Of a stretch of DNA of 45,312 bases, positions 183-26,637 are shown piece after piece. Source of the stretch: a virus; IMG/VR virus record IMGVR_UViG_3300025292_000006, positions 1 through 45,312 of that record; one strand, given 5' to 3'. The position numbers were made by a program, and so were the translations under genes. Below the pieces are notes generated by a model. That model searched no databases. It was not told where the DNA came from and saw nothing but the letters and a program-made list of their open reading frames with translations. The number at the start of each line of letters is the position of its first letter. The stretch's first letter is position 1.

Positions 183-1223
183 TCACGTGATGTTCTTTTC
201 CATCCGCAGAATGACCGCATCGCTGGTCTGCTGATCCGTCGCCAGATAGTGCTTCTCAAGCACTCTTCCTACCTCTGCAATCGAGTGCCCAGTGATCGAC
301 GCGATCTGTTCTGTCGTCGATCCTTCCCGCCGCCGTTCGGTGATGAACGTGCCGCGCAGGTCGTGAAACGTCACGCCCTCAATCTGGACACCATCGCTCT
401 CCTTGTTCAGCCTGGCACACTCTTTCGCCCATGACGTTTTGAAGCCGTCCTTCGTCCATGGCCGGCCGCGAGAGTTGTTCATGATTCGCATCTTGTCCTT
501 CGGCAGGGCGTCGATCATGGCTTTGAGCTTGCTGTGAACTTTCACGCGAACTCTCTTTTTCGTCTTCCCTTGCTGAAACGACAGGTGCGTGCCGTCGTAT
601 TGCTTCCATGTGAGGGATAGAAGATCACCTTGACGTTGCCCGGTGTGGATCGCCATTTCGAAGGCAAGGAGCATATGAGCCTTGGCCTTGGCCCGGAACA
701 GCGCGATCAGTTCCGGCGTCCAGACGCTTTCCTTGCGAGATCCCGTGTAAAGCCGGTTGATTCCGGTGCATGGGTTCTTCTCGATCGTCTCTTCGTCAAT
801 CCCGAAGGTGAAGACCCGGGAGAGGGAGAATAGCATCTGGTCGGCTTTCCGCGGGTTGGCGGAAAAGGTGTGATGCCATTTGCGGATCATCGCCTTCATG
901 CCGCGCTGCTGTGTGAGCTTCAGCGGCAGCTTCGGCCATTCCTTGCGGATTTCCTTGAACGAATGCTTGTGGGCGTCCTGGGTCTTCTCTGCCAGCGCGG
1001 AGAATGCAGGGCTCTTTTGGAAGGTGTCTATTAGGTCGTCGAGCGTCTTCACCTCTGCAGGGGCGCTCTCGGCGCGGTGCTTCAGTAGCTCTGCAGCGAA
1101 TGATTCGGTGTTCGGTTCGGCCTCCATCTTCGGACCGCCGCGCCAGGCGTAGTAGTGGACGCGGACCTCTCCGCTCGCCAGCCGGCGCTTGACCTTATGA
1201 ATTCCTTTGAGCTTCACGAGCAC
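183..1223 (-). CDS. int: phage tyrosine recombinase / integrase
   Basis: Site-specific recombinase that inserts and excises the prophage at the adjacent tRNA-Arg. With the GTG start chosen here (346 aa) the catalytic residues of the family are visible: Arg in HTGQRQGD (about residue 197), Lys in GKTKK (about 220), HDLR (His287, Arg290), the second His in ITGHS (about 313) and the nucleophile Tyr in EKHYLA (about 326). The N-terminal half (KLKGIHKVKRRL onward) looks like the usual arm-binding and core-binding domains. GTG at 1223 is preferred over the upstream ATG at 1271 because GGAGAG lies nine bases before it and the longer start would overlap the upstream gene by 77 bases. Last gene of the leftward operon. 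Confidence 0.93.
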   Translation of the reverse strand: MLVKLKGIHKVKRRLASGEVRVHYYAWRGGPKMEAEPNTESFAAELLKHRAESAPAEVKTLDDLIDTFQKSPAFSALAEKTQDAHKHSFKEIRKEWPKLPLKLTQQRGMKAMIRKWHHTFSANPRKADQMLFSLSRVFTFGIDEETIEKNPCTGINRLYTGSRKESVWTPELIALFRAKAKAHMLLAFEMAIHTGQRQGDLLSLTWKQYDGTHLSFQQGKTKKRVRVKVHSKLKAMIDALPKDKMRIMNNSRGRPWTKDGFKTSWAKECARLNKESDGVQIEGVTFHDLRGTFITERRREGSTTEQIASITGHSIAEVGRVLEKHYLATDQQTSDAVILRMEKNIT

Positions 1224-1434
1224 GTTCTCGATCTCTCCACGCCTGCCAATCCGCCAATGATGTGAAGTCATCAGGTTTCAGGTCAACCGTAGCAGGCTTG
1301 GAGGTATCTTGGATATCTGGTGAAACGCCGACGCGTTGGCCGTTGACCTCGATCCAAACCGTGACGCCCTTCGACTTGGCGACGTCGGCCATTCGCTTCA
1401 GGTCGGCCGCCTTGATTGCTGCTCTGGCCGTCAT
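1195..1434 (-). CDS. small protein upstream of integrase, possible excisionase position
   Basis: A 79-residue protein beginning MTARAAIKAADLKRMADVAK. The start at 1434 has a strong AAGGAGG ribosome-binding site seven bases upstream and forms an ATGA overlap with the stop of the DUF1643 gene. Its 3' end overlaps the integrase start by about 29 bases, so translation is coupled. The N-terminal half is helical and basic and the C-terminal half acidic and Trp-rich (DWQAWRD). Position next to int is where excisionases often lie, but I see no clear winged-helix excisionase signature, so function is unknown. Confidence 0.75.
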   Translation of the reverse strand: MTARAAIKAADLKRMADVAKSKGVTVWIEVNGQRVGVSPDIQDTSKPATVDLKPDDFTSLADWQAWRDRERAREAQRNS

Positions 1435-6172: not shown

Positions 6173-6404
6173 GCCAGCGCCGCTCCGATAACGGGCGCGA
6201 ACTCGCGAGCGAGGCGGCCACGGTTCTCGTATTCGCGCTGATCGACGTAAAAGCCTTCGCCGAAGCCGGAGGCGCGCAAGATCGACAGAGCATCGAGGAT
6301 GGCTCGGTTATAGGCTTCGCCTCCGGGTCGGTGTCTCCACCTCCGAGGGCTTCAATCTCGCGGTACAGTTCGTGCAGCTTCACGCGGCGGGGCTCGAAGG
6401 ACAT
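6169..6404 (-). pseudogene. frameshifted small phage gene
   Basis: The minus strand encodes MSFEPRRVKLHELYREIEAL then GGGDTDPE in one frame from the ATG at 6404, which has AAGGAGG upstream. The continuation that looks like protein, EAYNRAILDALSILRASGFG to EFAPVIGAALA and a TGA at 6169, is in the next frame. One added base (for example GGAGG to GGAGGG near 6317) would give a single 78-residue protein, matching the tight ATGA/TAATG packing on both sides. No canonical -1 slippery heptamer is seen at the junction, so a one-base deletion or sequencing error is more likely than programmed frameshifting. Confidence 0.7.
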
Positions 6405-6637
6405 TACGCGGCCTCCTTCTCGATCGAGGGCGTTGCGGTGAAATCGGGGAAATCGGAGAGGCGCTGATAGGTCTCGACCGAGCAGCCGCGGCATTCCGGG
6501 TTCGTGGCCAACTCTTCGTTGGCCTCGTCTTCGTCCCAGAACTCGACTGCATCGGCGTCGTCGTAGGAGAAAAGGCCCTCAGCGGTCAGGAACCGGCCAA
6601 CCTCGTCGGTGATGCTGTATCGGGTGACCATCGCCAT
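6404..6637 (-). CDS. first gene of leftward early operon, acidic protein
   Basis: A 77-residue acidic protein (MAMVTRYSITDEVGRFLTAE...). It contains a CRGC pair and many Asp/Glu (DDADAVEFWDEDEANEEL). It is the first gene after the leftward promoter at 6675-6703, with GAGAGGA about a dozen bases before the ATG. First genes of such operons often encode small anti-host or regulatory proteins, but nothing in the sequence proves this. Confidence 0.72.
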   Translation of the reverse strand: MAMVTRYSITDEVGRFLTAEGLFSYDDADAVEFWDEDEANEELATNPECRGCSVETYQRLSDFPDFTATPSIEKEAA

Positions 6638-6674
6638 TTGCTTCGTCCTCTCTCAGCGCCTTGCTGATGAAGAG

Positions 6675-6703
6675 ATATTCGCGACAATCGCAAAATAAGT
6701 CAA
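6675..6703 (-). promoter_or_regulatory. leftward early promoter PL with operator
   Basis: Reading the minus strand, TTGACT (6703-6698) is followed after exactly 17 bases by GAATAT (6680-6675). The spacer holds the operator core CGCGACAATCGCAAA (plus strand 6680-6694), the same core found in the rightward promoter at 8058-8072. Transcription would begin near 6668, about 30 bases before the first gene (6637). Confidence 0.7.
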
Positions 6704-6711
6704 CAGGGAAT

Positions 6712-6747
6712 TTTGCGACAGACGCAAAATCGCAAAATCGCGAAATT
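6712..6747 (+). promoter_or_regulatory. additional operator-like half-sites
   Basis: Repeats of GCGACA, CGCAAAAT and TCGCGAAA follow each other here (TTTGCGACAGACGCAAAA, then TCGCAAAATCGCGAAA). They share the TTGCGA/TCGCAA half-site with the PL and PR operators, so they may be further repressor sites upstream of PL. Confidence 0.5.
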
Positions 6748-6754
6748 GGACGCA

Positions 6755-6785
6755 ATAAAAAACCCGCCGGTTTGGGGCGGGTTCT
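6755..6785 (-). terminator. rho-independent terminator (minus strand)
   Basis: AACCCGCC (6761-6768) pairs with GGCGGGTT (6776-6783) around a 7-base loop. On the minus strand the hairpin is followed by TTTTTTAT, a good terminator. It would end leftward transcripts coming from the repressor side before they run into PL. Confidence 0.75.
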
Positions 6786-6997
6786 TCAGGTCGTCTTTGA
6801 CCGTCTGGTTAGGCGCAGGCCTTCACCTCAGCCGTATCGAGTCGGTAGCTTTCATTTCCACCGCACATCTGGGGCCGCCGACAGGTCGATCTGCCACCTG
6901 TTGTGGCAAGCGAATTATTTCTGAAAATCGACTCGACTCTCGGCTGCATTCCTGCTGTTTTGACGAGAACAAAAACGGAACATTGCAGGAGAGAGAA

Positions 6998-7267
6998 ATG
7001 ATGCGTAACGCTCCCGTAGATCACCCCGACGCCTTGCGGCTCGTCGTTGAACTAGCGAGCGTATATGTAGCTTGCGATGATTGCGGGCACTCCCGCATCC
7101 TTCGCCTCGATAACCTGACGAAGGTGGCAGAACTGGGCGTTCACAACTACATGCAGCTGTGCCGGAAGATCCGTTGCAGTGAATGCCCGAAGAAGCCGCC
7201 GGCCTTTAGAAACCTGACCATTCGCCCGACTTGGCGGTGCGATGAGGTGCTTCAGAGCATCGCGTGA
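6998..7267 (+). CDS. small Cys-rich (zinc-ribbon-like) protein
   Basis: An 89-residue protein with CDDCGH (about residues 24-29), then CRKIRCSECPKK (about 56-67), a likely four-Cys zinc knuckle. AGGAG lies seven bases before the ATG at 6998. It converges on the repressor gene and the two 3' ends overlap by 16 bases. Similar Cys-rich short proteins are common in rhizobia; function unknown, perhaps nucleic-acid binding. Confidence 0.7.
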   Translation: MMRNAPVDHPDALRLVVELASVYVACDDCGHSRILRLDNLTKVAELGVHNYMQLCRKIRCSECPKKPPAFRNLTIRPTWRCDEVLQSIA

Positions 7268-7977
7268 AACACGACTTTGTGGACGCTAAAAACTTTGTCT
7301 GCGGGGAACTCGAGTTCGTGCTGTTCGCCTTCGCCCGGGTTGTACTGGTAAAGGCGTACGAGGTCGGTAGAGCGTGACTCGTAGCGCTTGAGGTAGCTGT
7401 AAACCTCGTCGTCTTCGACCACCTGCACAACCACATCGTCGCCTTGCCGCACTTTGAGATGCGGGTTCACCCAGGCTGTTTCGCCGTGGAAGAAGCGCGG
7501 CTCACCGGAGCGGCCGTCCACCTGCACCGCATAGGCGCCTTCGACGCCCTCAAGCCCGGGCGGGCAAAACACCTGGGCGATATCCTGCCCATTCATGATG
7601 AAGCGGCCATTCTTGCCGGCAGAGATGTGGCCCCGCAGCGGTATCGAGGTATCGCCGGGGAACGACTGCCAGCGAGGCGGGAAGCTCGCGTTCGGCTTCG
7701 GCATAGGCCGAGCGACCGGCGCGTTAGGCGAGGAGCCTTGCAGCCAGTTAGTCATCTGCTCGAAGCCAGGCGGTAGCTCCCCGAAGAACTTCGCCATTGC
7801 CTCGATCTCCTGCAGGGAGATCTGGCGGCGCTTCTTCGGATCGTCGCTATGCAGTTCCTTCGATCGCGTGATCTTGTCGTTGGACATGCCGGTTGCTTCG
7901 GCGAGCTTTGAAGCTACACCGCGAGCCGCGACTTTCTCCGCAAGCCATTGTTTCAGTTCATATTGTGGGTCACTCAT
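7252..7977 (-). CDS. phage repressor, XRE HTH plus S24 peptidase domain
   Basis: A 241-residue CI/C2-type repressor expected to hold the lysogenic state. The N-terminal 65 residues contain a helix-turn-helix (ASKLAEATGMSNDKITRSKE). The C-terminal half is a LexA/S24 domain: the nucleophile Ser157 in GRSGEP, the general-base Lys197 in YLKRYE and a likely Ala-Gly self-cleavage point in GHISAGK (about 120-121). The catalytic pair is intact, so RecA-stimulated self-cleavage and SOS induction are expected. The start at 7977 has GAGGA seven bases upstream. It is divergent from the Cro-like gene, and the space between (7978-8081) holds several operator-like sites. Confidence 0.9.
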   Translation of the reverse strand: MSDPQYELKQWLAEKVAARGVASKLAEATGMSNDKITRSKELHSDDPKKRRQISLQEIEAMAKFFGELPPGFEQMTNWLQGSSPNAPVARPMPKPNASFPPRWQSFPGDTSIPLRGHISAGKNGRFIMNGQDIAQVFCPPGLEGVEGAYAVQVDGRSGEPRFFHGETAWVNPHLKVRQGDDVVVQVVEDDEVYSYLKRYESRSTDLVRLYQYNPGEGEQHELEFPADKVFSVHKVVFHAML

Positions 7978-7989
7978 GCGGCGATCCTC

Positions 7990-8040
7990 GCGGATTCCGC
8001 GAAAAACTCCATCGCGAATATCGCAAAATAATTGTTGCGA
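7990..8040 (+). promoter_or_regulatory. operator cluster between repressor and Cro-like genes
   Basis: The space upstream of the repressor contains CGCGGATTCCGCG (7990-8002), ATCGCGAATATCGCAAAA and a larger inverted repeat TCGCAA-N8-TTGCGA ending near 8040. These share the half-site of the operators in the two early promoters and are probably where the repressor and the Cro-like protein compete. The repressor promoter should lie here, but I cannot assign its boxes firmly. Confidence 0.55.
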
Positions 8041-8045
8041 CCCCA

Positions 8046-8081
8046 TTGACTTCTTGTCGCGACAATCGCAAATTTCGCGAC
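8046..8081 (+). promoter_or_regulatory. rightward early promoter PR with operator
   Basis: TTGACT (8046-8051), 17 bases, then CAAATT (8069-8074). The spacer and -10 contain the perfect palindrome TTGTCGCGACAA and the core CGCGACAATCGCAAA; TGTCGCGA and TCGCGACA also form an outer inverted repeat to 8082. A start point about seven bases after the -10 falls at the ATG of the next gene (8082), so the transcript may be leaderless. Confidence 0.68.
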
Positions 8082-8324
8082 ATGAGCGAAAAACATCTCG
8101 ACCCCGCAAAATCCATCATCGGAAAGATCGGCATCGAAAAGGTGGCCGAGGTCACCGGTAAGCACGTCTCCCGGGTGTACCGCTGGATGTACCCGAAAGA
8201 GAAGGGTGGCACCGGTGGGCTAATCCCCCAGACCGACGCCCCAGCGATCCTGGCATACGCCAAGTCGAAGAGGATCCCGCTCAAGGAAAAAGACTTCTTC
8301 CCGGTACGGGAGGGCGCCCAATGA
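8082..8324 (+). CDS. Cro-like helix-turn-helix regulator
   Basis: An 80-residue protein starting MSEKHLDPAKSIIGKIGIEK. The segment IEKVAEVTGKHVSRVYRWMY is a helix-turn-helix, and the length and place opposite the repressor fit a Cro-type antirepressor. There is no ribosome-binding site: the ATG lies inside the operator, seven bases after the predicted -10, which suggests leaderless translation. The longer frame from 7893 runs through the operators and the start of the repressor gene and is rejected. The stop overlaps the next ATG by four bases. Confidence 0.8.
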   Translation: MSEKHLDPAKSIIGKIGIEKVAEVTGKHVSRVYRWMYPKEKGGTGGLIPQTDAPAILAYAKSKRIPLKEKDFFPVREGAQ

Positions 8325-9253
8325 GCGCCGAAGGTCAGATCAAGGCATTCATCGACCGCATCCTCCGCCTCAAGGAAGAGCAGGACGTTATCGGCGACGA
8401 CATCCGCGACATCTACGCGGAAGCCAAGGGCATGGGCTTCGACAAGACCGCAATGGGCAACGTCGTCGCTCATCTGCGCAAAGTCGCGAAGAAGGGTTCC
8501 GAGACGGTCGCCGAGCAGGGCGCCATCTTCGACATCTATCTCGCCGCTTACGAGGGTCATCCGCCTGCGCCCGCCCGCGTACGAGAAAACATTGAACAAT
8601 TTGACCCGCTGACCGGCGAGTTCCTCGACGACAACCTTGACCCGAAGCTGGTCCAGACCATCGCCATGGGCGTCCAGACCGAGATCGGTCGCAAGGTCTT
8701 GACCGCAGCTGTCGACGTCATGATCGAGCAGGAAGAGGCGGAAGAAGAGACGCACCAGAGGCCCTCGACCAACGATGAGCCATCCCCAGAGGCAGGTCCG
8801 CAAGCCGAAGCCTCTCCTGCCGGGACTGGAACCGGGACGCTTGCGGATCGTGAGGGCCGCCATGACGGGGAGGTGGCTTCGGTCGACCTCCCCACCAATT
8901 CCGCAATCGCCTCGGCCTCTCAAGGCGAAGCCGAGGTCCCCAGCGCTGAGGCAGAACCTGGCGCCAAAGAAGGAGGCGAAAATGTAGATCGCAGCGCGAA
9001 GCGCGCAGGTCTCGAAGGAGGCCCCGTCAACCTTGAACCCTCTGGCCCGGAGGCTGAACGGGCAACCTCTTTCACCGCCAAGCCACCGTCCCCGTTGAGG
9101 CCGCATTGCCGGCAGCCGGAGGCATGCGGCGGCTATGGCCGGAACCACTGCCACACATGCGCGAAAGCGATGCGCGAACGCGAACCAGCGGAGAGGAACT
9201 TGCATGAGGAAGATTTCATCCGGCCTCGACGAGATGGTTCAGCGCTTCATTGA
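8321..9253 (+). CDS. DUF2312 (GapR-like) protein with long disordered tail
   Basis: A 310-residue protein. Residues 1-80 match the DUF2312/GapR family of alphaproteobacterial DNA-binding proteins (IKAFIDRILRLKEEQDVIGD, then DIYAEAKGMGFDKTA). GapR in Caulobacter binds overtwisted DNA ahead of replication forks and transcription. GapR itself is about 90 residues, so this version carries roughly 220 extra residues: a helical acidic segment, a Pro/Glu/Ala/Ser-rich linker and a final Cys/His cluster (CRQPEACGGYGRNHCHTC, about 275-292) that could bind zinc. ATGA coupling to the Cro-like gene puts it at the front of the rightward operon. Confidence 0.8.
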   Translation: MSAEGQIKAFIDRILRLKEEQDVIGDDIRDIYAEAKGMGFDKTAMGNVVAHLRKVAKKGSETVAEQGAIFDIYLAAYEGHPPAPARVRENIEQFDPLTGEFLDDNLDPKLVQTIAMGVQTEIGRKVLTAAVDVMIEQEEAEEETHQRPSTNDEPSPEAGPQAEASPAGTGTGTLADREGRHDGEVASVDLPTNSAIASASQGEAEVPSAEAEPGAKEGGENVDRSAKRAGLEGGPVNLEPSGPEAERATSFTAKPPSPLRPHCRQPEACGGYGRNHCHTCAKAMREREPAERNLHEEDFIRPRRDGSALH

Positions 9254-9347
9254 GGGCGAGGTCAGAGGCATTCGCTCCGGTCCAAACAGGTTCAAGGCCG
9301 CCGAGAGCCAGCAGCCTGAAGATCAAACCGAGAAGAGGGCTGCCTGA
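9204..9347 (+). CDS. small hypothetical protein
   Basis: A 47-residue protein (MRKISSGLDEMVQRFIEGEV...) with GAGAGGA about six bases before the ATG at 9204. It overlaps the end of the DUF2312 gene by 50 bases in a different frame and shares a TGATG with the next small gene. One amphipathic helix then a charged tail; function unknown. Confidence 0.6.
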   Translation: MRKISSGLDEMVQRFIEGEVRGIRSGPNRFKAAESQQPEDQTEKRAA

Positions 9348-9463
9348 TGTTCGTTGCTGCTGCGCTCGTCGCGACTGTCGTCGCCGCAATGCTGCTCCTC
9401 GGCGGTGTCGCTCTCTTTTCCGAACTCGAATTTCGCCGGAACGGCTTCCGGCCAAAGGATTGA
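9347..9463 (+). CDS. 38-residue small membrane protein
   Basis: ATG overlaps the previous stop (TGATG). The peptide is MFVAAALVATVVAAMLLLGG continuing to VALFSELEFRRNGFRPKD: one clear transmembrane helix and a basic cytoplasmic tail. The tight coupling and typical single-pass layout support a real gene. Function unknown. Confidence 0.55.
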   Translation: MFVAAALVATVVAAMLLLGGVALFSELEFRRNGFRPKD

Positions 9464-9488
9464 TCGCGGTTCTCCTCCTCCCTCGCGA

Positions 9489-12410: not shown

Positions 12411-13661
12411 ATGAGCTTCGAAACCCGCTCCATCCTCCACGGGCGCTGCACTATCCATGTTGGCGATTGCCTCGACGTTATGCGCGCCATGCCTTCGGGC
12501 TCGGTCGACTGTGTCGTCACCAGCCCGCCTTACTGGGGCCTGCGCGACTATGGCGTCGAAGGCCAGATCGGCCTTGAGCCGACACTCGGCCAGCACCTCG
12601 CCGTGATGGTCGAAGTGTTTGCCGAGGTCTGGCGGATCTTGAAACCGCAAGGCACGCTTTGGCTCAACTACGGCGACTGCTACGCAGCAGCTCCGAACGG
12701 GAAGAGCGCAGAAGCCTATAAAGCCGAGGGTTCTGACGACCGTACTTTCCGGGACAAGCCGTTCTCGACCGTGGGCCCGATCTACCAGGCCGACCGTCAC
12801 GGCGACAGAGGTGTTCGAGGCAAATTTCATCGCCGCGCTGCTGGTGTCAGTTCACCTGGTGCCATCGTCGCTGGCGGCTACCTGAAACCCAAAGACCTCT
12901 GCATGATCCCGAACCGGTTGGCGATTGCCCTCCAAGAGGCGGGCTGGTGGGTTCGCTCAGAGATCATCTGGCACAAGCCCAACCCGATGCCGGAAAGCGT
13001 CTACGATCGCCCGACGACGGCGCACGAGAAGGTCTTCTTGCTCACGAAAGGCGAGGAGTATTTCTACGAACACGAGGCGATCCGTGAGCCGGTGACCGGC
13101 GGCTCGCATGCGCGGAAGCCTGGACCGAACAGTAGGCAGAACGTCGATCGGGTGCCCGTCTCGAGGAAGTTAAAAGTCCCCGGTGGATGGGACGTTGAGC
13201 CCGGGGCACATGGCACGATCAATCGGTCCGGCAGAACCTCATCCACCTACAAGATCGCGGATGAAGGCGACCCATACCGAAAGTCGAAGCAGTCTTTCCG
13301 CGACAGCACATCGGATCTCACCGAGACCCGCAACGCGCGCAACGTCTGGACCATCGCGCCGAAGGCTTTCCGCGAAGCTCATTTCGCCACGTTCCCGCCG
13401 GCGCTCGCCGAGCGCTGCATCAAGGCAGGCACCCCGAAGACCGTTTGCGGTTGCTGTGGCGTTGACCACGGCTGCGGTCCGATCTGCGAAACCTTCGATC
13501 GCGTGCCCGGTACCGTCTTCGATCCGTTCGGTGGCGCCGGCACGGTCGGCCTTGTCGCCGAGCAGCTCGGCCTTCGCAGCATCCTGATCGAACTCAATCC
13601 CGAATACGCGGACATCGCCGTCCGGCGCATCGAAGGCGCAGAGCGAAAGGACGCGGCATGA
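12411..13661 (+). CDS. beta-class DNA methyltransferase (N4-cytosine/N6-adenine)
   Basis: A 416-residue solitary methyltransferase. Catalytic motif IV TSPPYWGLR lies near the N terminus (residues 37-45) and the AdoMet-binding motif I FDPFGGAGTVG near the C terminus (about 370-380), which is the permuted order of the beta class. SPPY is found in both N4-cytosine and N6-adenine enzymes, so the modified base cannot be decided. A Cys cluster (CGCCGVDHGCGPIC, about 344-357) lies in the insertion and may bind zinc. No restriction gene is next to it. It probably protects phage DNA or changes regulation. Start by ATGA overlap with an open frame upstream. Confidence 0.9.
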   Translation: MSFETRSILHGRCTIHVGDCLDVMRAMPSGSVDCVVTSPPYWGLRDYGVEGQIGLEPTLGQHLAVMVEVFAEVWRILKPQGTLWLNYGDCYAAAPNGKSAEAYKAEGSDDRTFRDKPFSTVGPIYQADRHGDRGVRGKFHRRAAGVSSPGAIVAGGYLKPKDLCMIPNRLAIALQEAGWWVRSEIIWHKPNPMPESVYDRPTTAHEKVFLLTKGEEYFYEHEAIREPVTGGSHARKPGPNSRQNVDRVPVSRKLKVPGGWDVEPGAHGTINRSGRTSSTYKIADEGDPYRKSKQSFRDSTSDLTETRNARNVWTIAPKAFREAHFATFPPALAERCIKAGTPKTVCGCCGVDHGCGPICETFDRVPGTVFDPFGGAGTVGLVAEQLGLRSILIELNPEYADIAVRRIEGAERKDAA

Positions 13662-19827: not shown

Positions 19828-20292
19828 ATGGCCGAGCGAAAACTCACACATGAGCAGCAGACCTTTGTCGTCCAGTCGCTGGCTTGCTTCGATAGCCCGT
19901 CGGTTGTCGCCGCTGCACTCAAGAAGGATTACGCGGTCACGCTGACGCCTCAGGCGATCGAAGCCTATGACCCGAACAAGAAGGCCGGTGCGCGCCTCGC
20001 CGCGAAATGGAAAATGCTCTTCGAGGAGACCCGCAAGACCTTCCTTGAGGACACCGCCTCGATCGCGATCAGCCATCGCGCCGTTCGTCTCCGCGCTCTC
20101 CAGCGCATGGCAGACAAGGCAGAGACCCAGGGCAACATGGTGCTTGCATCGTCGTTGCTGAAGCAGGCGGCGGAAGAGGTCGGCGGCGCCTATACGAACC
20201 GACGCGAGATCACGGGCAAGGACGGCAAGGATCTTCCGGCGCCGGTCTCTCCGGTGACGATCTTCCAGTTGCCCGATAATGGCAGGGGTTGA
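19828..20292 (+). CDS. terminase small subunit, DUF2280-type
   Basis: A 154-residue protein of the DUF2280 family, which precedes terminase large subunits in many phages and is regarded as the small subunit that recognises phage DNA. Visible: N-terminal HTH-like part (LTHEQQTFVVQSLACFDSPS, PQAIEAYDP), then helices with RAVRLRALQRMADKAETQGN and a C-terminal tail. It overlaps the large subunit gene by 14 bases. Confidence 0.82.
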   Translation: MAERKLTHEQQTFVVQSLACFDSPSVVAAALKKDYAVTLTPQAIEAYDPNKKAGARLAAKWKMLFEETRKTFLEDTASIAISHRAVRLRALQRMADKAETQGNMVLASSLLKQAAEEVGGAYTNRREITGKDGKDLPAPVSPVTIFQLPDNGRG

Positions 20293-21670
20293 GCAAGGGC
20301 AGGGCGCCCAGACAATCATCCGGCCGCAGGCTGGCCCGCAGACACAGTTCCTTGGTTCGCCAGCTGACATCGCCATCTACGGCGGGTCGGCAGGTGGCGG
20401 CAAGACGTGGGCGCTCCTCATGGAGCCGCTGCGCCACGTTGCCAATCCTCAGTTCGGCGCCGTGTTCTTTCGGCGCACGCTGGTGCAGGTCAGAAACGAG
20501 GGTGGCCTTTGGGACGAGAGCGAGAAGCTCTATCCCAGCCTGAACGCAAGGCCGAAGGTGGCGCCGGATCTATCGTGGACGTTCCCGTCGGGGGCGTCAG
20601 TCAGCTTCGCCCACCTCGAGCACGACAAGACGGTATCGAACTGGCAGGGTTCGCAGATCCCGCTGATCTGCTTCGACGAGCTCACGCACTTCAGTGCAAA
20701 GCAGTTCTGGTACCTGTTGTCACGTAACCGATCGATGTGCGGCGTCCGGCCGTATGTCAGGGCAACCTGCAACCCGGATGCGGATAGTTGGGTTGCCGAG
20801 TTCATTTCGTGGTGGATCGACCAGGATACCGGTCTCCCGATACCAGAGCGGGCCGGCAAGCTTCGTTGGTTCGTCCGCATCGGTGACGCGGTCATCTGGG
20901 CCGATGATCCGGAAAAGCTCGCCGAATACAAGAACCCGGTCGACGGCACGCCGATCCCGCCGAAGTCGGTGACGTTCGTCCCGGCGAAGCTGACTGACAA
21001 CGCCGCGCTGATGGCAGCCGATCCCGGCTACCTCGCCAACCTGATGGCCCTGCCGACTGTTGAGCGCGAGCGCCTCCTCGGCGGCAACTGGAAGATCAGG
21101 CCGGCCGCCGGGCTGTTGTTCCAGCGTGGCTGGTGTGAGGTCGTCGATGTGATCCCGGCCGGCGTCGTCAAATGGATGCGCGGTTGGGACATGGCGGCCA
21201 CGCCGAAGGCAGAAGGCACCGACCCAGATGCCACCGCCGGCACCAAGATCGGCAAGTTGTCCGACGGCCGCTACATCGTGGCGCATCACTGCAACGACTT
21301 CTTGTCACCGTCAGGCGTCGAGCGGCTCATCAGAAACACGGCGGAAGCCGATGGCAAGGACGTGCACATATCGCTGCCGCAGGATCCGGGCCAGGCGGGC
21401 AAGTCGCAGGTCACCAACCTGACGAAGCTGCTTGCCGGCTTCACGGTACGGGCCACGCCCGAATCCGGTGACAAGGTGACACGGTTCAGCCCGTTCTCCG
21501 CTCAGGCGGAAGCAGGCAACGTCCTCGTCCTTCGGGCCCCTTGGAATGCAGCATGGTTTTCGTCGCTCGAAGGCTTTCCTGAGGCGACGCACGATGACGA
21601 CGCCGACAGCACGAGCCGGGCATTCAACGCGCTTCTCAGCGCAAGCACGTACACGCTGGCGAACGTTTAG
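20279..21670 (+). CDS. terL: terminase large subunit
   Basis: A 463-residue ATPase/nuclease that packages phage DNA. Walker A GGSAGGGKT (35-43) and Walker B LICFDELTHF (Asp132, Glu133 catalytic) are clear, followed by the coupling motif ATCNP (161-165). The C-terminal nuclease domain has Asp303 in GWDMAATP and Asp368 in LPQDPGQAG, the metal ligands. Length and motif order are normal. It lies between the small subunit and the portal. Confidence 0.93.
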   Translation: MAGVEQGQGAQTIIRPQAGPQTQFLGSPADIAIYGGSAGGGKTWALLMEPLRHVANPQFGAVFFRRTLVQVRNEGGLWDESEKLYPSLNARPKVAPDLSWTFPSGASVSFAHLEHDKTVSNWQGSQIPLICFDELTHFSAKQFWYLLSRNRSMCGVRPYVRATCNPDADSWVAEFISWWIDQDTGLPIPERAGKLRWFVRIGDAVIWADDPEKLAEYKNPVDGTPIPPKSVTFVPAKLTDNAALMAADPGYLANLMALPTVERERLLGGNWKIRPAAGLLFQRGWCEVVDVIPAGVVKWMRGWDMAATPKAEGTDPDATAGTKIGKLSDGRYIVAHHCNDFLSPSGVERLIRNTAEADGKDVHISLPQDPGQAGKSQVTNLTKLLAGFTVRATPESGDKVTRFSPFSAQAEAGNVLVLRAPWNAAWFSSLEGFPEATHDDDADSTSRAFNALLSASTYTLANV

Positions 21671-21678
21671 GAGCGGAC

Positions 21679-23520
21679 ATGGGAAACATCATCGCTTTCG
21701 TCCGCGACAGCCTGACGAACATGGTTGCGAACATCGGCACCAGCCGGGACAAGGCGTCATCGACCTTCTACTCGATGCCGATGCTTTCGGACGAGGAGTT
21801 GCTCAACGCCTACCGTGGTGCGTGGCTACCGCGGAAGATCGTCGATATCCCGGCTTTCGACAGCGTGCGTGCCTGGCGTGACTGGCAGGCGAAGAAAGCT
21901 CAGATCGAAGCCATCGAGGCCGAAGAGAAGCGCCTCAACGTCAAGGGCAAGATCCTCGAAGCCAAGATCAAGGCTCGGCTCTGGGGTGGCGCCGCCGTCG
22001 TCATCGGTACCGGCGATCAGAACCTGACCGAGCCGCTCGATGTCGAGCGCGTTGGCAAAGGTGGCCTGAAGTACCTGACGGTTATCTCCCGTCGCAATCT
22101 GACCGCCGGCGAGATCGAGCGCGACCCGGCCTCCGAATGGTACGGAAAGCCGAAGGTCTATCAAATCAAATCGACAGACGGCGTGCAGGTCGACATTCAC
22201 CCGTCGCGACTGGTCGTCTTCAATGGGGCCGCCCAGCCTGACGAGGAGATCGTCACCACGACCTATGCAGGCTGGGGCGATAGCGTGCTCCTGTCGGTCG
22301 TCGAGGCGATCAAGCAGGCCGACGGTACCGCGGCGAACATTGCCAGCCTCGTCTTCGAGGCCAAGGTCAACGTCATCCGTATCCCCGACTTCATGCAGAA
22401 CGTCGGTGATCAGCGGTACCGCGAGAAGATCCTCGAACGCTACACGCTCGCTGCCACGGCCAAGGGTATCAACGGCGACCTCCTCCTCGACAAGGAAGAG
22501 GAGTTCGAACAGAAGACGGCGAGCTTCGCCACGCTTCCCGACGTGCTGATGTCGTTCATGCAGCTGGTATCCGGCGCCGCCGACATCCCGGCAACCCGTC
22601 TTCTCGGTCAATCGCCGGCCGGCATGAACGCCACCGGCGAAAGCGACCTGCGCAACTACTACGACCGTTTGCAGGCCATGCAGTCGGTCGAGATGACGCC
22701 GGCAATGGCCCGGCTCGATGAGTGCATTATCCGCAGCGCCCTCGGTTCGCGTGACCAGGATATCTATTACGAGTGGGCACCGCTCTGGGGCATGTCCGAG
22801 AAGGAAAAGGCCGACGTCTTCAAGACAAAGGCCGATGCAGCCCGGGCGCTCGCCGGCACATCGACATCTCCGCCGCTGCTGCCGATCGACGCCCTGTCGG
22901 ATGCTCTGGTCAATACGTTCGTCGAGGACGGCGCGTTGCCCGGTCTCGATGCGGCGATTGAGGAGCATGGGGCGCTCAGCGAGCAGGAGCCAGACGATGA
23001 CGAGCAGCGCGCCGCCGTCGGCGAGGAGCCGAAGGAAAAGGCGAAGCCAGTTACCGCCGACGCCGCGCCACGCACGCTCTACGTCTCGCGCAAGGTGCTA
23101 AACGCCGACGAGATCATTGCCTGGGCCAAGGGGCAAGGCTTCAAGACCACGCTCCCGGCCGACGACTTGCACGTCACCATCACATTCAGCCGCACACCGG
23201 TTGATTGGATGAAGATGGGCAGCACTTGGGAAGACGAGGTGAAGATCCCGCGTGGCGGTGCGAGATTGATGGAGAAGTTCGGCGAGGCGCATGTCCTGCT
23301 ATTCGTCTCCAACATGCTGTCGTGGCGCCACGACGAGATGGTCGACAGGGGAGCAAGCTGGGATCATCCCGAATACCAGCCGCACATCACCATCAGCTAC
23401 GATGAGGATGCCGCGGACCTTGCCAAGGTTCAGCCTTATCAGGGCGAGATCGCGCTGGGTCCGGAGATCTTCAGTGAGGTGTTCGAGGACTGGCGACAAG
23501 GGATCAAGCAAAGGCCGTGA
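21679..23520 (+). CDS. portal protein (DUF1073) with C-terminal Acb1-like 2H phosphoesterase domain
   Basis: A 613-residue two-part protein. Residues 1-430 are a DUF1073 portal, the dodecameric DNA gate of the capsid: YRGAWLPRKIVDIPAFDSVR, the LLGQSPAGMNATGESDLRNY motif and the ETMT-like C-terminal helices. A Glu-rich linker (430-462) leads to a domain of about 150 residues with two HxT motifs, LHVTITFS (His498, Thr500) and PHITISYD (His569, Thr571), 71 residues apart, and the intervening TPVDWMKMG and MLSWRHDEMV. This matches the Acb1 2H phosphoesterase that destroys CBASS cyclic nucleotides. It follows terL by 8 bases. Confidence 0.9.
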   Translation: MGNIIAFVRDSLTNMVANIGTSRDKASSTFYSMPMLSDEELLNAYRGAWLPRKIVDIPAFDSVRAWRDWQAKKAQIEAIEAEEKRLNVKGKILEAKIKARLWGGAAVVIGTGDQNLTEPLDVERVGKGGLKYLTVISRRNLTAGEIERDPASEWYGKPKVYQIKSTDGVQVDIHPSRLVVFNGAAQPDEEIVTTTYAGWGDSVLLSVVEAIKQADGTAANIASLVFEAKVNVIRIPDFMQNVGDQRYREKILERYTLAATAKGINGDLLLDKEEEFEQKTASFATLPDVLMSFMQLVSGAADIPATRLLGQSPAGMNATGESDLRNYYDRLQAMQSVEMTPAMARLDECIIRSALGSRDQDIYYEWAPLWGMSEKEKADVFKTKADAARALAGTSTSPPLLPIDALSDALVNTFVEDGALPGLDAAIEEHGALSEQEPDDDEQRAAVGEEPKEKAKPVTADAAPRTLYVSRKVLNADEIIAWAKGQGFKTTLPADDLHVTITFSRTPVDWMKMGSTWEDEVKIPRGGARLMEKFGEAHVLLFVSNMLSWRHDEMVDRGASWDHPEYQPHITISYDEDAADLAKVQPYQGEIALGPEIFSEVFEDWRQGIKQRP

Positions 23521-23547
23521 TGTGGAGCACATCACGGCGTGAACACC

Positions 23548-23745
23548 TCAATCGTTTTGCGTAGCCTTGTTCAGAGCCGCGCCGGCTTCGGCTACGGACT
23601 CAGAAACTTGAACTTCCATACTGCTGCCCCCAACGTTGAGAAGCACCTCGGTTCGACCGAACCGCTCCATTACTGCTGATACGTAGCGAGGGTTGATGTA
23701 AACTTCTCGGCGGCCGTTTGATGTGTCGTGAAGCTTGGCGAGCAT
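23548..23745 (-). CDS. small protein, FlbD-like pattern
   Basis: A 65-residue minus-strand protein (MLAKLHDTSNGRREVYINPR...). GGAGA seven bases before the ATG. The strand pattern INPRYVSAVMERFGRTEVLL and VQVSESVAEAG is like small beta-rich regulators such as FlbD, but similarity is only superficial. An accessory gene between portal and protease genes. Confidence 0.6.
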   Translation of the reverse strand: MLAKLHDTSNGRREVYINPRYVSAVMERFGRTEVLLNVGGSSMEVQVSESVAEAGAALNKATQND

Positions 23746-23786
23746 TCGTGTTCTCCGTGAATTTTCGGCGGGATTGATGCGACTAC

Positions 23787-24035
23787 TTAAAAGTACTTCT
23801 GAATACGTGGCATGTCGGGATCAGTCGCTTTAATCGCCACGGCAAATCGCTTTGCTTCAGCAGAGAAACCTGCCTCCTCTGCTGCCTTCAACCCTTCGAG
23901 GTTAGCGATGACAAGTACATCATCGTCTCCGCTAGCGTTGGCCAAAGCTTCGTCAATCAAATTGATCGCGGCTTGAAATTCTCCTTTGCCACGCAGGGCA
24001 GCAGACTGGCGGATGGCATTTTCGAGTGCTGACAT
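23787..24035 (-). CDS. small TPR-like helical protein
   Basis: An 82-residue protein starting MSALENAIRQSAALRGKGEF. Helical pairs with the spacing of tetratricopeptide repeats (ALRGKGEFQAAINLIDEALA, then NLEGLKAAEEAGFSAEAKRF). AGGAGA seven bases before the ATG at 24035. Function unknown; probably a moron, same strand as 23548-23745. Confidence 0.65.
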   Translation of the reverse strand: MSALENAIRQSAALRGKGEFQAAINLIDEALANASGDDDVLVIANLEGLKAAEEAGFSAEAKRFAVAIKATDPDMPRIQKYF

Positions 24036-24082
24036 TTGGGGTCTCCTTTTCCGGAGGCCATATACACGGCGCGGAGACAATA

Positions 24083-25231
24083 ATGCAATTCATAGATGCA
24101 GCACCGATCGCGGGAACGCGACGGACCGCCGACGGCTACCTTGTTGCGGACGTCAAGACCGCGCGCACTGGTATCCAGCTTTATGCCGGCCGCGAGGTCG
24201 GGAAGCCGGAAATGCAGTCCGTGAAGGTCTACCGCTCCGCCGATCAGGTTTTCGACAAGGCCAGCCTCGGCAGCTACGCCCACAAGCCGGTGACCAACGA
24301 TCACCCGACCGAGGCAGTCACCGCCGACACTTGGAAGGCCGTTTCGGTCGGCCAGATCGGCGACGAGGTGGCGCGCGACGGTGAATTCGTCCGCATCCCG
24401 CTCGTTGTCATGGACGCCGCGGCGATCAAGGCGATCGACGAGGGCAAGCGCGAGCTTTCCGCCGGCTACACCTGCGATCTCGCATGGGAGCCGGGCACGA
24501 CGCCCGAGGGCGAGAAGTACGACGCAATCCAGAAAGATATCCGGATCAACCACGTCGCCATCGTCGAGCGTGGGCGCGCCGGGTCGCAAGCTCGCATCGG
24601 CGACGGTGCGGGACAGTGGGGCGCTGCCCCGTTCACCAGTGATCAGAAACCGAAAGAGGAAAAGATCATGACCCTGAAGACGGTTACCGTCGATGGCATC
24701 CCGGTTGAAGTAACCGATCAGGGTGCCACGGTTATCGGCACGCTGCAGCAGCGCCTTGCCGACGCCATTTCCAAGCTTACCGCCACTGAAACGGCACATC
24801 AGACGGCTTTGGCCGCCAAGGATGCCGAACTGGCGAAGAAGGATGCTGAGCTCGACGCCACGAAGGCCAAAGTGCTTTCCGACGCCGACCTCGACAAGCG
24901 CGTGCAGGCTCGCGCCGATCTCGTCGCCAAGGCCAAGGTCCTGGCGAAGGACGTCAAGACCGAAGGCCTGTCCGATGCTGCCATCCGCAAGGCCGTCGTC
25001 GTTGCCAAGATCGGCGATGCCGCCGTCGCCGACAAGTCGGACGCCTACATCGATGCCCGCTTCGACATGCTCGTCGAGGACGCTGGCAAGAGCGCCGGCG
25101 GCGTCGATCCGTTCCGCGTGGCTGTTCAGCAGGGTCTCTCGCAGACCACTGACGCCAACGCATCCGCAACCGCCCACAAGGCCATGGTCTCCGATCTTGA
25201 ATCGGCCTGGCAGACGAAGGGAGCCAAGTGA
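24083..25231 (+). CDS. prohead protease/scaffold, DUF2213
   Basis: A 382-residue protein. The N-terminal 190 residues match DUF2213, a phage capsid maturation protease: YAGREVGKPEMQSVKVYR, SYAHKPVTNDHPTEAV with the conserved His, AGYTCDLAW and HVAIVERGRAGSQARI near 157-172. The C-terminal 185 residues are a coiled-coil scaffold-like region (AKDAELAKKDAELDATKAKV) with a final TTDANASATAHKAMVSDL. An in-frame ATG at 24668 with a good ribosome-binding site could make the scaffold alone. The GGAGA before 24083 sets this start. Confidence 0.85.
   Translation: MQFIDAAPIAGTRRTADGYLVADVKTARTGIQLYAGREVGKPEMQSVKVYRSADQVFDKASLGSYAHKPVTNDHPTEAVTADTWKAVSVGQIGDEVARDGEFVRIPLVVMDAAAIKAIDEGKRELSAGYTCDLAWEPGTTPEGEKYDAIQKDIRINHVAIVERGRAGSQARIGDGAGQWGAAPFTSDQKPKEEKIMTLKTVTVDGIPVEVTDQGATVIGTLQQRLADAISKLTATETAHQTALAAKDAELAKKDAELDATKAKVLSDADLDKRVQARADLVAKAKVLAKDVKTEGLSDAAIRKAVVVAKIGDAAVADKSDAYIDARFDMLVEDAGKSAGGVDPFRVAVQQGLSQTTDANASATAHKAMVSDLESAWQTKGAK
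24668..25231 (+). CDS. possible nested scaffold protein
   Basis: In the same frame as the DUF2213 gene, ATG 24668 (residue 196) begins MTLKTVTVDGIPVEVTDQGA. AGAGG lies eight bases before it, right where the protease domain ends. This would give a 187-residue scaffold protein alone, the arrangement known in lambda (C and Nu3) and HK97-like phages. Expression is inferred from the ribosome-binding site. Confidence 0.5.
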   Translation: MTLKTVTVDGIPVEVTDQGATVIGTLQQRLADAISKLTATETAHQTALAAKDAELAKKDAELDATKAKVLSDADLDKRVQARADLVAKAKVLAKDVKTEGLSDAAIRKAVVVAKIGDAAVADKSDAYIDARFDMLVEDAGKSAGGVDPFRVAVQQGLSQTTDANASATAHKAMVSDLESAWQTKGAK

Positions 25232-25683: not shown

Positions 25684-26637
25684 ATGAACATGCTTATCAC
25701 CCAGGACGCTCAGCAGGTCGCGATGAGCTTCCTTATCCGTCAGGCCTCGTTGATCGAGCCGACGGTCTACGCGATGAAGTACCAGGAGATCCAGTATTCC
25801 CAGCTGATCCCCGTCGACACCTCGGCGCCGGAATGGATTCAGTCGGTCACGTACTTCTCCATGGACTCGGTCGGCCAGGCTCAGTGGTTCAGCGGCCTCG
25901 CGCACGATGTGCCGAAGGTCGAACTGACCCGCGAGAAGTTCGAAACGACCGTCAGCATGGCGGCGATCGGCTACGGGTATACGCTCGAGGAACTGGGCAC
26001 CGCCCAGCTGCTCGGCATGAGCCTGACCTCGGACAAGGCGAGCTCGGCCCGTCGCATCGCTGAAGAGAAGATCGACAGCGTCGCCTTCGTCGGTGATACC
26101 GGCAAGGGCTACACCGGTCTGGTCAACTCCTCGACGCCGACGGCCACCACGGCTCCGGCCGACGGTACCGGCTCGGCGACGACCTTCGCCAGCAAGACGC
26201 CGGACCAGATCCTTCGCGATATCAACGGCCAGCTCACCGGCATCTTTACCGGCACGCTCGGCGCGGAGATCGCGGACACGCTGCTCCTGCCGTACTCGGT
26301 CCTGTTGGACCTTTCGACCCGTCGTATCGATGCCGTCAACCAGACGACCATCCTCGAATGGATCGAGAAGAACAACATCTACACCCGGACTACCGGCCAG
26401 CCGCTCACCATCCGCGGTGTGTTCGGTTACCTCGATACCGCCGGCGCAGGCGGTACCAAGCGCATGGTTGCCTACCGTCGCTCGCCGGAAGTGCTGAAGA
26501 TGCACATTCCGATGCCGTTCCGGTTCCTGCCGGCATGGCAGACCGGTCCGATGAAGTTCGATGTCCCCGGCATCTTCCGCGTCGGCGGCGTCGATATTCG
26601 TCGGCCGAAGGCCGTTCGCTACCTCGACGGCATTTAA
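25684..26637 (+). CDS. major capsid protein, DUF2184
   Basis: A 317-residue capsid protein with HK97 fold features of the DUF2184 family: N-terminal arm with AMSFLIRQASLIEPTVYAMK, the QSVTYFSMDSVGQAQWFSG segment, KFETTVSMAAIGYGYTLEEL, GYTGLVNSS and a C-terminal AWQTGPMKFDVPGIFRVGGV. It lies in the normal capsid position with AGGAG before the ATG. Expected to be the most abundant protein of the head. Confidence 0.88.
   Translation: MNMLITQDAQQVAMSFLIRQASLIEPTVYAMKYQEIQYSQLIPVDTSAPEWIQSVTYFSMDSVGQAQWFSGLAHDVPKVELTREKFETTVSMAAIGYGYTLEELGTAQLLGMSLTSDKASSARRIAEEKIDSVAFVGDTGKGYTGLVNSSTPTATTAPADGTGSATTFASKTPDQILRDINGQLTGIFTGTLGAEIADTLLLPYSVLLDLSTRRIDAVNQTTILEWIEKNNIYTRTTGQPLTIRGVFGYLDTAGAGGTKRMVAYRRSPEVLKMHIPMPFRFLPAWQTGPMKFDVPGIFRVGGVDIRRPKAVRYLDGI

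Follow-up and report, generated by a model that had tools for sequence, protein, structure and literature searches.

A phage portal protein with a C-terminal Acb1-like domain that is an optional, exchangeable cassette

Portal proteins that end in an Acb1-like domain raise the question of whether the added domain is part of the portal or cargo carried by its gene, and of what it would do there. The question is raised here by an IMG/VR virus record of 45,312 bases, which was analyzed at its full length and is referred to as the window. Its open reading frame at 21679–23520 (+) encodes a polypeptide of 613 amino acid residues. Residues 40–388 (21796–22842, +) form the portal core, which matched PF06381 (E = 6.8e-114) and the HI1409 family TIGR01555, and the protein was also assigned to the portal family phrog_146 and to the fold of the Pam3 portal 8hds (E = 9e-34). 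The position of the gene fits the order of head genes. The gene for the terminase large subunit (20279–21670, +; phrog_979, E = 2.5e-174) is directly upstream, the next late gene downstream encodes a DUF2213 head maturation protease (24083–25231, +; phrog_530, E = 1.7e-115; PF09979), the start of which was inferred from relatives, and the gene for the major capsid protein follows (25684–26637, +; PF09950, phrog_264). Residues 465–607 (23071–23499, +) matched the Pfam profile of Acb1, PF23474, at a score of 147.7 bits, far above the cut-off of 27 (E = 2.5e-43). The initial annotation of this DNA had proposed a DUF1073-type portal with a C-terminal Acb1-like domain within 23040–23520, and both the assignment and the range agree with these matches.

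The membership of this domain in the Acb1 family was also found with solved structures. In a phmmer search against their sequences, the domain matched the C-terminus of the Pam3 portal (E = 1.6e-38) and Acb1 of phage FBB1 (7t26; E = 2e-10). Its identity to T4 Acb1 was 26%. The AlphaFold2 model of the domain, which was built with 67 sequences, had a mean pLDDT of 92 and the 2H phosphoesterase fold. The best Foldseek matches were two structures of FBB1 Acb1, 7t27 and then 7t26, one with and the other without the cGAMP product, with E-values of 6e-8 and 9e-8 and TM-scores by target length of 0.67 and 0.76, followed by Acb1 of phage BCSR5 and then by LigT of E. coli (E = 4e-5, TM about 0.55). Two HxT motifs 71 residues apart, which had been noticed earlier, are present as H498-V499-T500 (23170–23178, +) and H569-I570-T571 (23383–23391, +), and they correspond to H44/T46 and H113/T115 of T4 Acb1. 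To assess their conservation, 137 distinct fused domains were drawn from 164 loci; as these loci were fetched with peptides of the window's domain and of one relative, the sample leans to near relatives. The first histidine was found in 135 and the first threonine in all of the 137 domains, while the second histidine was found in 136, with the remaining one on a truncated contig, and the last position was threonine or serine in 135. The catalytic tetrad is intact in the window as well as in 133 of the 137 domains, although the fused domains diverge to about 45–50% identity. The four exceptions have arginine or asparagine at the first histidine (one each), methionine at the last threonine (one) or end with their contig (one). 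Domain family, fold and catalytic residues are therefore established, and the fused domain looks like a live enzyme. The 'DWMKMG' stretch, which had been listed as a match to T4 Acb1, is instead a hallmark of the fused clade, in which its D55 and W56 are nearly invariant, whereas T4 Acb1 has VPYVPSSG at this place.

The residues around the putative active site bear on the substrate. In T4 Acb1, Y12 and W147 stack on the bases (PMC9117128). Their equivalents in the window are Y468 (23080–23082, +) and the lid residue W605 (23491–23493, +); the tyrosine was found in 135 of 137 fused domains and the tryptophan in 101, with a gap in 17. Different from these two, W74, F107 and E141 of T4 Acb1 are not kept as such. 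In the sequence alignment, which is uncertain near W74, their columns hold E, H and S in the window, respectively. Across the 137 fused domains, the W74 column holds E or D and the F107 column H, F, W or Y, while the E141 column varies among E, A, Q and S. These three residues, of which E141 contacts adenine, are substrate contacts and are not part of the catalytic signature of the Acb1 family, and other residues of the fused domains may take over their roles. As these pocket residues are not kept as such, the substrate of the fused domain may differ from that of T4 Acb1. The fused domain could then be a 2H enzyme for another substrate, such as RNA ends with a 2',3'-cyclic phosphate, which LigT-like enzymes would repair after the action of anticodon nucleases, or another nucleotide signal, for example a derivative of ADP-ribose. 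The replaced base contacts, the membership of LigT in the same superfamily, the name 'RNA ligase' of PHROG 755 and the pairing of the domain in some carriers with NUDIX and ADP-ribosyltransferase domains, which points to NAD/ADP-ribose chemistry, all speak for such an enzyme. LigT and other 2H RNA phosphodiesterases share the superfamily fold and the HxT motifs with the fused domain, but their structural match is weaker and a close sequence match is absent, so that Acb1 is nearer in both sequence and fold; the retained equivalents of Y12 and W147 also favor Acb1. We consider another substrate unlikely, though the most plausible of the alternatives discussed here.

Whether the portal needs this domain can be judged from its relatives. 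Among the 80 nearest portal cores in IMG/VR, 63 lack the domain and stop near residue 455, 16 have the domain and one is followed by a relic. A scan of genomes with the full portal found 17 domain-less loci, several of them in Ensifer and Sinorhizobium, the cores of which were 85–93% identical to that of the window and also ended at about residue 455. Domain-less cores with identities of 93–94% were found as well. Two loci keep traces of the domain. In L113, an eroded relic of the domain, VEPYQGEIVLGPEMFSEV, is found 436 bases past the portal stop, and in L114 the domain is deleted, with the start of the linker, GEEPKEKPKAVTA, joined to a remnant of the domain end (GPERFEDV). A FastTree tree, in which some branches are long, was built from 165 distinct cores, of which 98 have the domain and 67 lack it. 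At least 16 changes of domain presence were counted on this tree, 11 of which were forced by well supported branches. At the DNA level, homology to the domain-less loci L084, L105 and L107 breaks at 23005 and is found again from 24083, where the start codon of the DUF2213 gene lies, and homology to L114 breaks at 23059 (pairwise blastn). The interval 23005–24083, which contains the Acb1 domain and two small open reading frames on the minus strand, is thus a variable spot. These two reading frames (23548–24080; 65 and 97 residues), located between the genes of the portal and the head protease, had no family match, and relatives have different small minus-strand reading frames at this spot, as morons do.

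These results show that the Acb1 domain is an optional cassette, which the portal gene may or may not carry at its 3' end; the core functions in its absence. They also bear on whether the domain might lack an enzymatic role and instead aid portal assembly, DNA packaging or head closure. Although the domain belongs to a structural protein and contacts might be formed by its conserved entry motif, DAxPRTLYV, portals of up to 94% identity lack it entirely, the catalytic tetrad is among its best-kept features and it is also found on an unrelated portal family. A purely structural role is therefore very improbable.

The domain is not only gained and lost but also exchanged. Between the window and L096 of Ensifer adhaerens L18, the cores were 97% identical and the domains only 57%, while between L030 and L040 the identities were 40% for the cores and 94% for the domains. 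Over 4753 pairs, the rank correlation between core and domain identities was 0.51, whereas the identities of the two core halves correlated with each other at 0.86. Moreover, the domain is found on other proteins. Portals of the Mu type also end in an Acb1 domain; the portal family PF06074 was confirmed in L075 and L236, and one scan yielded 54 loci, of which 21 resembled portals of this type. In L257 (4875–6698), the domain precedes a DUF2213 head protease in one protein; in L260 (1560–3695), it is beside a weak MuF match; and in L259 (2802–7325), it is fused to a topoisomerase IB/GNAT protein. Large polyproteins with NUDIX and ADP-ribosyltransferase domains contain it in L247 and L252, as does one with NUDIX in L258. 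Furthermore, in L055 (1717–2745) and L070 (4001–5524), the Acb1 domain is followed by an ADP-ribosyltransferase domain (PF03496) within the same portal polypeptide. The portal-Acb1 fusion was also found in isolated Rhizobium phages, including RHEph06. The domain is an exchangeable cassette that has been repeatedly gained, lost and swapped among portals, a property absent from the initial annotation. The gain, loss and swapping of this tail among close relatives is the pattern expected of counter-defense cargo and not of a structural part.

On this basis, the C-terminal 150 or so residues are probably a tethered phosphodiesterase of the Acb1 type that would hydrolyze CBASS-type signals late in the producing cell, as an optional and exchangeable counter-defense cassette. 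In the proposed mechanism, a flexible linker would tether the 2H phosphoesterase to the portal, and the domain would be produced together with the late head proteins. In a cell under infection or induction, it would then hydrolyze the cyclic di- or trinucleotides that signal alarm, and the putative benefit for the phage would be to complete its virions before the host commits suicide. Such a linker is predicted at residues 433–460 (22975–23058, +), an acidic stretch in which pLDDT was below 50 at residues 433–440 and 442–460 of the full-length model and where domain-less relatives stop. As for the putative timing, the activity of T4 Acb1 appears late, at about 15 min into infection, which matches the late onset of CBASS (PMC9117128). 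As CBASS is activated while virion parts accumulate, an antidote fused to a virion part would appear together with them without added regulation.

The domain might alternatively ride in the capsid, be cut from the portal, for instance by the head maturation protease, and be ejected with the DNA to act at the start of infection. Its presence on a DUF2213 protease, on MuF and on large NUDIX/ADP-ribosyltransferase polyproteins would suit such delivery, and this architecture was interpreted by Iyer et al. (2022; PMC9503650) as packaged and injected. The long flexible linker and the Pam3 portal are also in agreement with delivery. The sequence of the Pam3 portal includes the domain (621 residues), and only 442 residues are in the virion model, which means that the C-terminal domain is flexible, cleaved or absent in the virion. 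Portals of tailed phages normally remain on the capsid once the DNA has been ejected, so the simplest place for the domain to act is the producing cell, where it would be synthesized late. The claim that the domain is carried in every virion is unsupported as worded, given that the C-terminus of the Pam3 portal is unmodelled and that a portal does not leave the empty capsid to enter the next host. Neither a cleavage site nor a conserved internal translation start that would free the domain was found; an in-frame ATG was present in 28 of 71 linkers, and in only 9 of 71 did an SD-like motif precede any start codon. In addition, a late CBASS response leaves little need for an antidote at entry (PMC9117128). 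Delivery with the virion is accordingly improbable, and hydrolysis of CBASS-type signals in the producing cell is the reading we retain.

If the domain counters CBASS, its carriers might be expected to meet CBASS often. CD-NTases were called with PF18144 at E ≤ 1e-6 in 299 Rhizobiaceae genomes. The domain scored above its cut-off in 16 of these genomes, and 14 of the 16 had a PF06381 portal. A CD-NTase was found in 5 of the 16 carriers and in 26 of the 283 other genomes (Fisher p = 0.017, with few genomes and kinship ignored), and in all five positive carriers a CBASS effector gene called by PADLOC adjoins the cyclase gene. None of the 13 genomes with a domain-less PF06381 portal had a CD-NTase (p = 0.041, likewise with few genomes and kinship ignored), although two of these 13 controls had weak SMODS matches short of the 1e-6 limit, so that a laxer cut-off weakens the association. 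A class-wide sample of 385 genomes added one carrier, which was without a CD-NTase, and a genus sample contained only one carrier among 16 genomes. As both held too few carriers to repeat the association, it stays weak: among Rhizobiaceae genomes, carriers have CBASS more often. Even so, it speaks against a substrate unrelated to CBASS.

In L196, a two-gene CBASS operon (6234–9480), consisting of an oligonucleotide cyclase and a 2TM effector on the minus strand, is inside a prophage. It precedes the terminase gene of this prophage by some 100 bases, and the gene after the terminase encodes the portal-Acb1 fusion. The prophage thus seems to combine CBASS with what may be its antidote. Other viral contigs with an L196-type cyclase were searched for and none was found, and a partial cyclase-like match in L176 was read as a short separate reading frame and left out of the counts. 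A broader proposal is that the portal C-terminus is a standing cargo slot in which phages swap Acb1-type and ADP-ribosyltransferase domains. The virion would carry tethered copies in the portal ring, and this cargo would either be partly released into the next host or shield the phage from the CBASS operons that such prophages themselves carry. We regard this proposal as doubtful.

Compared with known systems, the fused domain is similar to T4 and FBB1 Acb1 in its 2H fold, HxT tetrad and equivalents of Y12 and W147. T4 Acb1, however, is a stand-alone protein of about 152 residues, while the window's domain is the end of a portal and differs from it at the W74 and F107 positions as well as, depending on the fused domain, at that of E141. 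A previous study found 281 Acb1 relatives, many of them in prophages, and showed that nine homologs besides T4 Acb1 cleaved 3'3'-cGAMP and cAAA; the word 'portal' is absent from its main text (PMC9117128). The portal of cyanophage Pam3 shares the portal fold and the C-terminal domain with the window's protein and shows this portal type in a virion, with the domain outside the solved model; a literature search, which lay outside the Pam3 structure paper itself, found no published mention of this domain. Our literature search for Acb1 together with portal found no relevant paper and no test of a portal-fused Acb1. Fusions of 2H domains to MuF and portals were predicted by Iyer et al. (2022; PMC9503650), together with the same idea that they counter immune signaling by nucleotides, which makes the present fusion one of a known kind. 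The one sentence there that treats them favors injection and describes neither cassette exchange nor domain-less sister portals. What is new here is the Acb1 domain as an optional and exchangeable cassette of the portal. Portals that are almost identical but differ in having the domain, or that have strongly diverged domains, provide natural pairs for a clean test of tethered Acb1. For annotation, our results also caution that a protein matching the 'Acb1' family may in fact be a portal.

Finally, a tRNA-Arg(tct) gene at 23–99 adjoins a tyrosine integrase gene at 183–1271 (-), a probable prophage attachment site, so that the window is probably a prophage. The bearer of the portal-Acb1 fusion is probably a rhizobial temperate phage or prophage. 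The window also encodes a DNA methylase at 12411–13661 (N6_N4_Mtase, PF01555), which is possibly a second counter-defense gene.
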